Shown here: positions 52,500-53,840 of the stretch, piece by piece
Layout: each line of letters opens with the position of its first letter
Numbering within the stretch: position 1 is the first letter of the stretch
Assembly (NCBI GenBank): GCA_007130865.1
Contig: SLRR01000131.1
Coordinates: 1-64,000 of the forward strand
Length of the DNA stretch: 64,000 nucleotides
Source: Spirochaeta sp.
GTDB lineage: Bacteria > Spirochaetota > Spirochaetia > DSM-27196 > Alkalispirochaetaceae
Direction of reading: 5' to 3'
Program-made: the position numbers and the translations under genes
Notes under the pieces: generated by a model
What the model was told of the DNA's origin: nothing
What the model saw: the letters and a program-made list of their open reading frames with translations, nothing else
The model's database searches: none

Positions 52500-53369
52500 T
52501 TACTGTGCACGCAGAACCTCGGCTATCAGGCGGGCCGTACTCTGGTCATGGCTCTGGATCACCTTCTGGTTTGCTTCGTAGGCGCGGTTGACCTCGATCA
52601 TGTTGGTCATTTCCACCACCACATTGATGTTGGCCTTTTCCACGAATCCCTGGAGCACCTGCGGACGTTCCGTCCCGACGAGGTCCACGGCGTCGCCGCT
52701 TTCCCTGGTCACGTTCCAGAGATTCTCTCCCTGCTTGCGGAGATACCGCGTCTCGTCAACGTTCACCAGCCGCACTTGCCCGATCTGAATCGTCTCGTCC
52801 CACTCATTCTCGCGCATCTGGACGAGGCGGTCGGGATCCTGCAGGTACCGTTCGTTGGCAAACACCCGTCCCTGCTGGTCCACGTAAAAGTTATTGGCCT
52901 TCACCTCGATCGGGAAGCCGTCGTCACCCAGCACGGGATAGCCCTGTTGCGTAACAAGCAGACCTTCCGGTCCCAGGGTGAAACTACCGTTCCGGGTGTA
53001 CCGTTCGCCGTACGGCGTGTCCACCACAAAGAATCCGTTCCCCTCGAGGGCGAGGTCAAAGGGGTTCTCCGTGGGGTGTACCGCGCCCTGCTCGAAGATC
53101 GTAAAAACCTCGTTCTGCTCGACGCCGGTGCCGAGTCGCCCCACCACGGGAGCCTTGTCGATCGAACCGATCGGCTCACCGCGGTACGGAAACTGGATCA
53201 CACCCTCGTCACCCATGCGACGGAGCAGTAACTCCGGGAAAGCCTTCTGAACGGAAACGTCCCGCTTGTAACCGACCGTATCGGCGTTTGCGAGGTTATT
53301 GGTCAGCGCGTTGAGCCGATGCTGCTGCGCAGCCATCCCGCTCGCCGCGGTAAAAACACCACGTACCAT
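52500..53369 (-). CDS. flgF: Flagellar basal-body rod protein FlgF-like
   Basis: MVRGVFTAASGMAAQQHRLNALTNNLANADTVGYKRD; C-terminal ANINVVVEMTNMIEVNRAYEANQKVIQSHDQSTARL. Confidence 0.9.
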   Translation of the reverse strand: MVRGVFTAASGMAAQQHRLNALTNNLANADTVGYKRDVSVQKAFPELLLRRMGDEGVIQFPYRGEPIGSIDKAPVVGRLGTGVEQNEVFTIFEQGAVHPTENPFDLALEGNGFFVVDTPYGERYTRNGSFTLGPEGLLVTQQGYPVLGDDGFPIEVKANNFYVDQQGRVFANERYLQDPDRLVQMRENEWDETIQIGQVRLVNVDETRYLRKQGENLWNVTRESGDAVDLVGTERPQVLQGFVEKANINVVVEMTNMIEVNRAYEANQKVIQSHDQSTARLIAEVLRAQ

Positions 53370-53403: not shown

Positions 53404-53578
53404 AGAACCAGCAGAAATTAATTCAATCAAGTGTGGACGCCCCGTGAAACGCGGCGTACGAGAGACGCGACGCGGTTACCTAACGCGCGACGCCGCCACG
53501 GACGTTACCACGGATCGCCGCCGCGCAGAGGCTGTCCACGGATAGCCCGCATCGTCGGTAAAGCCGTCGGAAGCAGGC

Positions 53579-53621
53579 GTTCTCAATGTGGGATGTCGGA
53601 ACGACACCCCACATTGAGAAC
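53579..53621. repeat. Long hairpin H1: 20-bp arms (one mismatch), 3-nt loop
   Basis: GTTCTCAATGTGGGATGTCG-GAA-CGACACCCCACATTGAGAAC. Confidence 0.95.
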
Positions 53622-53670
53622 TCGCCAAAAACGTCTTGATTTTGCTTCGTTTCTACGTTGTGGTGGCGTA

Positions 53671-53709
53671 TTCGCAAAGTGAAGGGACGTGGTCCCTTCA
53701 CTTTGCGAA
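53671..53709. repeat. Long hairpin H3: perfect 18-bp arms, 3-nt loop
   Basis: TTCGCAAAGTGAAGGGAC-GTG-GTCCCTTCACTTTGCGAA. Confidence 0.97.
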
Positions 53710-53768
53710 CACCTGCCTCGGAAGGGGCTTTTCAAAACGGTCGGGCTCTGCTATATTCCCGGCATTCC

Positions 53769-53840
53769 GCCAAGGTAGCTCAGGGGCAGAGCAGCTCACT
53801 CGTAATGAGCAGGTCGTCGGTTCGAATCCGACTCTTGGCT
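53769..53840 (+). tRNA. tRNA-Thr (CGT)
   Basis: GCCAAGGTAGCTCAGGGGCAGAGCAGCTCACTCGTAATGAGCAGGTCGTCGGTTCGAATCCGACTCTTGGCT; anticodon loop CTCGTAA; TATATT -10 at 53752-53757. Confidence 0.94.

Follow-up and report, generated by a model that had tools for sequence, protein, structure and literature searches.

A row of stem-loops upstream of tRNA-Thr in a Spirochaetaceae genome is very probably a MITE whose ends are hairpins

We analyzed a 64,000-nucleotide stretch of DNA (the window; positions 1 to 64,000 of contig SLRR01000131.1) from G000, a 3.73-Mb Spirochaetaceae MAG of 303 contigs. The locus of interest lies between a flagellar gene and a tRNA gene and comprises the following features.

52500..53369, minus strand: flagellar rod protein gene (FlgE/F/G family), a neighbor that served in the synteny test
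53565..53573, plus strand: left 9-bp target duplication CGTCGGAAG, 8/9 identical to the right copy
53574..53715, plus strand: complete element of 142 bp, very probably a MITE, CAGGCGTTC...AACACCTG, with end points shared with other complete copies
53579..53621, plus strand: left terminal hairpin H1, 20-bp arms, 19/20 paired, one A/C mismatch, loop GAA
53622..53670, plus strand: spacer with a weak central stem, CGCCA/TGGCG and AACGT/ACGTT
53671..53709, plus strand: right terminal hairpin H3, perfect 18-bp arms, loop GTG
53716..53724, plus strand: right 9-bp target duplication CCTCGGAAG
53729..53757, plus strand: sigma-70-like promoter of tRNA-Thr, TTTTCA-17-TATATT, a neighbor unbroken by the insertion
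53769..53840, plus strand: tRNA-Thr (CGT), a neighbor outside the element

A preliminary description of this locus reported a gene-less row of three stem-loops at 53579-53709, upstream of tRNA-Thr. All three are present there, with the middle stem also appearing in the computed fold (predicted at -76 kcal/mol and thus very stable), and the 142-bp element has no room for a transposase. The reported span contains the hairpins but misses the ends, since the repeated unit is 53574-53715. Likewise, the arms are related as described, but the core GTTCKCAAWGTG, said to occur in four alternating copies, is found only three times in the window, twice in H1 and once in the outer arm of H3; the fourth arm, the inner arm of H3, is ATTCGCAAAGTG. 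The terminal inverted repeats are CAGGAGTTCTCAATGTG on the left and, as the reverse complement, CAGGTRTTCTMAAAGTG on the right. As such, the ends CAGG(A/C)GTTCTCAATGTGGG... and CAGGTRTTCNNAAAGTGAAGGG... are related inverted repeats, each of which doubles as the outer arm of the hairpin at its end.

The palindromes are repeated genome-wide, as had been suspected: across the 3.73 Mb, a 12-mer pattern has 41 occurrences and its reversed control none, far more than chance would give. Using blastn with 53560-53715 against G000, we found 79 matches, distributed over about 40 separate places, in both orientations and at unrelated sites. About a dozen of these copies are full length, and the rest comprise truncated copies, copies interrupted by a contig end, and deletion forms. 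With few exceptions, copies open with CAGG (or CAGC) and close with CCTG.

The direct repeats at the flanks of the copies vary between sites. We compared the two flanks of 24 complete copies (G000, G001, G003, and G005). In 23 of them, at least 8 of the 9 bases agree, and the mean flank identity was 0.94 at length 9, whereas the other lengths between 5 and 13 all gave 0.18-0.31. Shuffled flank pairs gave a mean of 0.95 copies with 8-9/9 identity (maximum 6). Altogether, the element is short, gene-less, dispersed in multiple copies, and bounded by terminal inverted repeats and a duplication of fixed length, 9 bp, which are features of a MITE.

To search for the empty site, we joined the window flanks with one copy of the duplication. 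The flagellar gene followed by tRNA-Thr was found in four relatives (G002, G004, G005, and G006), and in all four the intergenic DNA consists of native sequence only and is free of the element. Each of them also has, upstream of the tRNA promoter, the GGGGCTT box that in the window comes after the insertion point, and this box is conserved together with a TATA-like hexamer at that promoter; left of the box, the sequences have diverged, so that the empty site is not demonstrable at single-base resolution along the entire left flank. The simplest reading of these sequences is that the insertion would have arisen in the G000 lineage, beside but not in the tRNA-Thr promoter, which begins 4 bp past the right target duplication. 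The earlier suggestion of an integration-site remnant is therefore correct insofar as this is an insertion, but the inserted DNA is very probably a MITE, four relatives have the empty site, and the closeness of the element to tRNA-Thr looks incidental.

Nine-base duplications are the mark of a DDE-type transposase that cuts its target in a staggered fashion. We are confident that the feature is a MITE transposed by a trans-acting enzyme of this type and later altered by template switching, with the window copy standing beside an intact tRNA-Thr promoter; mobilization in trans by a DDE-type transposase is the most likely mechanism. Such an enzyme would recognize the element ends and cleave the two target strands 9 bp apart, and gap repair after insertion would leave the 9-bp direct repeats. 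In the window, the element would have inserted just upstream of the tRNA-Thr promoter, leaving it unbroken. Subsequently, the palindromes would be re-made in place by replication template switching, with arm copied onto arm, the loop inverted, and a hairpin sometimes deleted, a step suggested by paired changes, loop inversions, and deletion forms among the copies.

We infer both the transposase and its recognition of the ends. The assemblies gave no autonomous partner sharing these ends. Specifically, searches for Y1, ISAs1, PF01609 (IS4/IS5-type), and IS256 transposases in these fragmented MAGs yielded no autonomous IS with the element ends, expected for the source IS to follow the pattern CAGG(A/T)GTTCTCAAA. 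Multi-copy IS are often lost from fragmented MAG assemblies. PF01609 and PF00872 loci were rejected as partners, as they do not have the element ends, and a search for UPF0236 (ISLre2) gave no match, with its positive control also silent. The ISAs1 family has CAGGG ends and 8-10-bp duplications, a description to which the CAGG ends and 9 bp of the spirochaete element come near. However, none of the genus genomes searched has an ISAs1 transposase (PF13808); the only one found belongs to a sister genus and has CAGGGCAAACGCA repeats on its flanks rather than the present repeat.

The element resembles the bacterial IS-derived MITEs, e.g., QMITE2 (Coxiella) and Chunjie (Geobacter), which are gene-less, dispersed units of 50-250 bp with inverted terminal repeats and truncated copies resembling REPs, and the direct repeats of QMITE2 measure 7-9 bp (reviewed in PMC10969869). 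Unlike in these MITEs, the terminal repeats of the spirochaete element each self-fold into a near-perfect hairpin, and one-hairpin forms of 53-66 bp also have duplications at their flanks. Typical terminal inverted repeats are not hairpins themselves, which counts against the MITE reading. The family apparently represents an undescribed MITE of a Spirochaetaceae genus, belonging to an ordinary class of mobile DNA, and its unusual trait is that each end is a near-perfect hairpin. It is conceivable, though we consider it improbable, that the hairpins are required for transposition, i.e., that a DDE-type transposase making 9-bp duplications would recognize each end once it is extruded as a hairpin, in cruciform or single-stranded form. 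Hairpin recognition as in IS200/IS605 would then be combined with insertion at a staggered cut, and a single 53-bp hairpin would be the minimal mobile unit.

The derived forms extend this description. A 102-bp form without the right hairpin occurs at C126 and C181, where the deletion junction is shared (GGTGGC/AATACCTG) but the duplications are not; therefore, this deletion form has probably transposed. The one-hairpin forms, with their duplications, are at C110, C233, and C222 and at C249 of G003. We also considered whether the C126 copy lies inside a tRNA gene; with its flanks joined, the site gave no tRNA in ARAGORN. Across the related species, the copies follow a common plan of hairpin, 40-50-nt spacer, and hairpin, and G005 and G003 have their own subfamilies, in which the terminal arms are kept and the spacer is different. 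One copy of the G005-type subfamily (CAGCAATTC... end) was observed in G000 (C127, L016, 1111-1221), with its left hairpin mostly deleted and its 9-bp duplication intact.

According to a sequence search of 40 relatives, the repeat is confined to the genus. In an exact-pattern scan of 85,462 species, from which G000 may have been excluded, the right end and hairpin were found only in two MAGs of the genus (PLM2.Bin22 and GH27, recorded as Spirochaetaceae); matches in Bathyarchaeota and Clostridia were single ends without hairpins and were taken as chance. The plasmids and phages searched gave no match to the repeat. In a crude test for a preference for intergenic sites, which counts antisense ORFs, 10 of 22 insertion sites fall in an ORF of at least 150 aa, versus 74% of random flank points.

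Two further loci deserve description in their own right. In G003, the start of C12 (L104, 1-185) and the end of C39 (L102) are apparently joined via one copy, with the duplication CACACGCAA on both, and the interior beyond the spacer is unlike the MITE and has other hairpins, possibly representing a longer derivative; C12 was considered as an autonomous copy, and the extra DNA led to no transposase. In G000, the right hairpin of one copy (C130, L110, 2640-2955) is split by a group II intron-like 5′ end (GTGCGCCCGGCAGGGCGCACCC...GGAGGTGAAAGTCCTC), belonging to what we take to be a group II intron, for which Rfam gave no match. Other copies of this 5′ end are found directly after terminator-like hairpins (L184, L185, L186, and L187), the position expected of class C group II introns, and the MITE hairpin at C130 seems to have served as the intron target.

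The window copy itself probably has little or no host function. The MITE hairpins could have been adopted locally, e.g., as a terminator, mRNA end, or insulator upstream of tRNA-Thr, which would add to the MITE explanation rather than replace it: perfect stems of 18-20 bp might halt transcripts or shield them, and the element lies just upstream of the tRNA promoter. However, no terminator is listed at the stems of the window copy, no T-tract follows them, and the insertion is not conserved between species, which makes such adoption unlikely.

The preliminary description also raised the possibility of a structured RNA, i.e., a host riboregulator or processing signal whose fold is kept by selection. 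Besides the very stable fold, this idea draws support from covariation among 20 distinct right hairpins, in which 97% of cells are paired and two-sided changes occur at 9 of 20 pairs (28 such cells versus 6.8 in shuffles, a count that overstates independent events, since some of these changes were passed down within subfamilies). Many paired changes are, at the same time, private to single copies, e.g., C118, C87, C33, and C235b. Loops are found in both orientations: the left loop is GAA or TTC, with the window copy inverted relative to most copies in having GAA; the right loop is GTG in the window and CAC in C257; and G005 has AA versus TT. In one G000 copy (C267, L029, 1213-1365), the right stem is extended through a self-complementary loop (GGGACGTGGTCCGGACCGCGTCCC). 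Polymerase template switching between inverted repeats homogenizes arms and inverts spacers, leaving two signatures (PMC8604942). Because arm homogenization and spacer inversion are these very signatures, we attribute the covariation at least partly to a mutational process, template switching at the palindromes; the lengthened stem of C267 is a further sign of it, and selection on the DNA hairpin for transposition may also contribute. Loop inversions and a lengthened palindrome are expected from template switching, not from selection on RNA. Moreover, the copies are dispersed at unrelated sites with target duplications, the orthologous site lacks the element in four relatives, no promoter-like site was found inside it, and only the tRNA exceeded the family gathering score in an Rfam search of the window region, so that a structured RNA is very unlikely.

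Y1 (IS200-IS605 type) transposition makes no 9-bp target duplication. The REPIN-like family first proposed, in which two inverted REP hairpins are moved by a RAYT (a Y1 tyrosine transposase), holds as to the roughly 40 dispersed, gene-less copies with an inverted hairpin pair, which resemble REP doublets as mobile units (PMC3116915), but as a mechanism it is scarcely credible and we reject it, because no Y1_Tnp/RAYT was found in G000 (six control genomes were positive) and 9-bp target duplications are present at 23 of 24 complete copies.

With the MITE reading, a row of conspicuous stem-loops is explained as one insertion. The many near-perfect palindromes, in which arms have changed in pairs, loops have flipped, one stem has grown longer, and hairpins have been lost, would then form a natural record of template switching at palindromes, and they carry the caution that strong covariation within a repeat need not imply a functional RNA.
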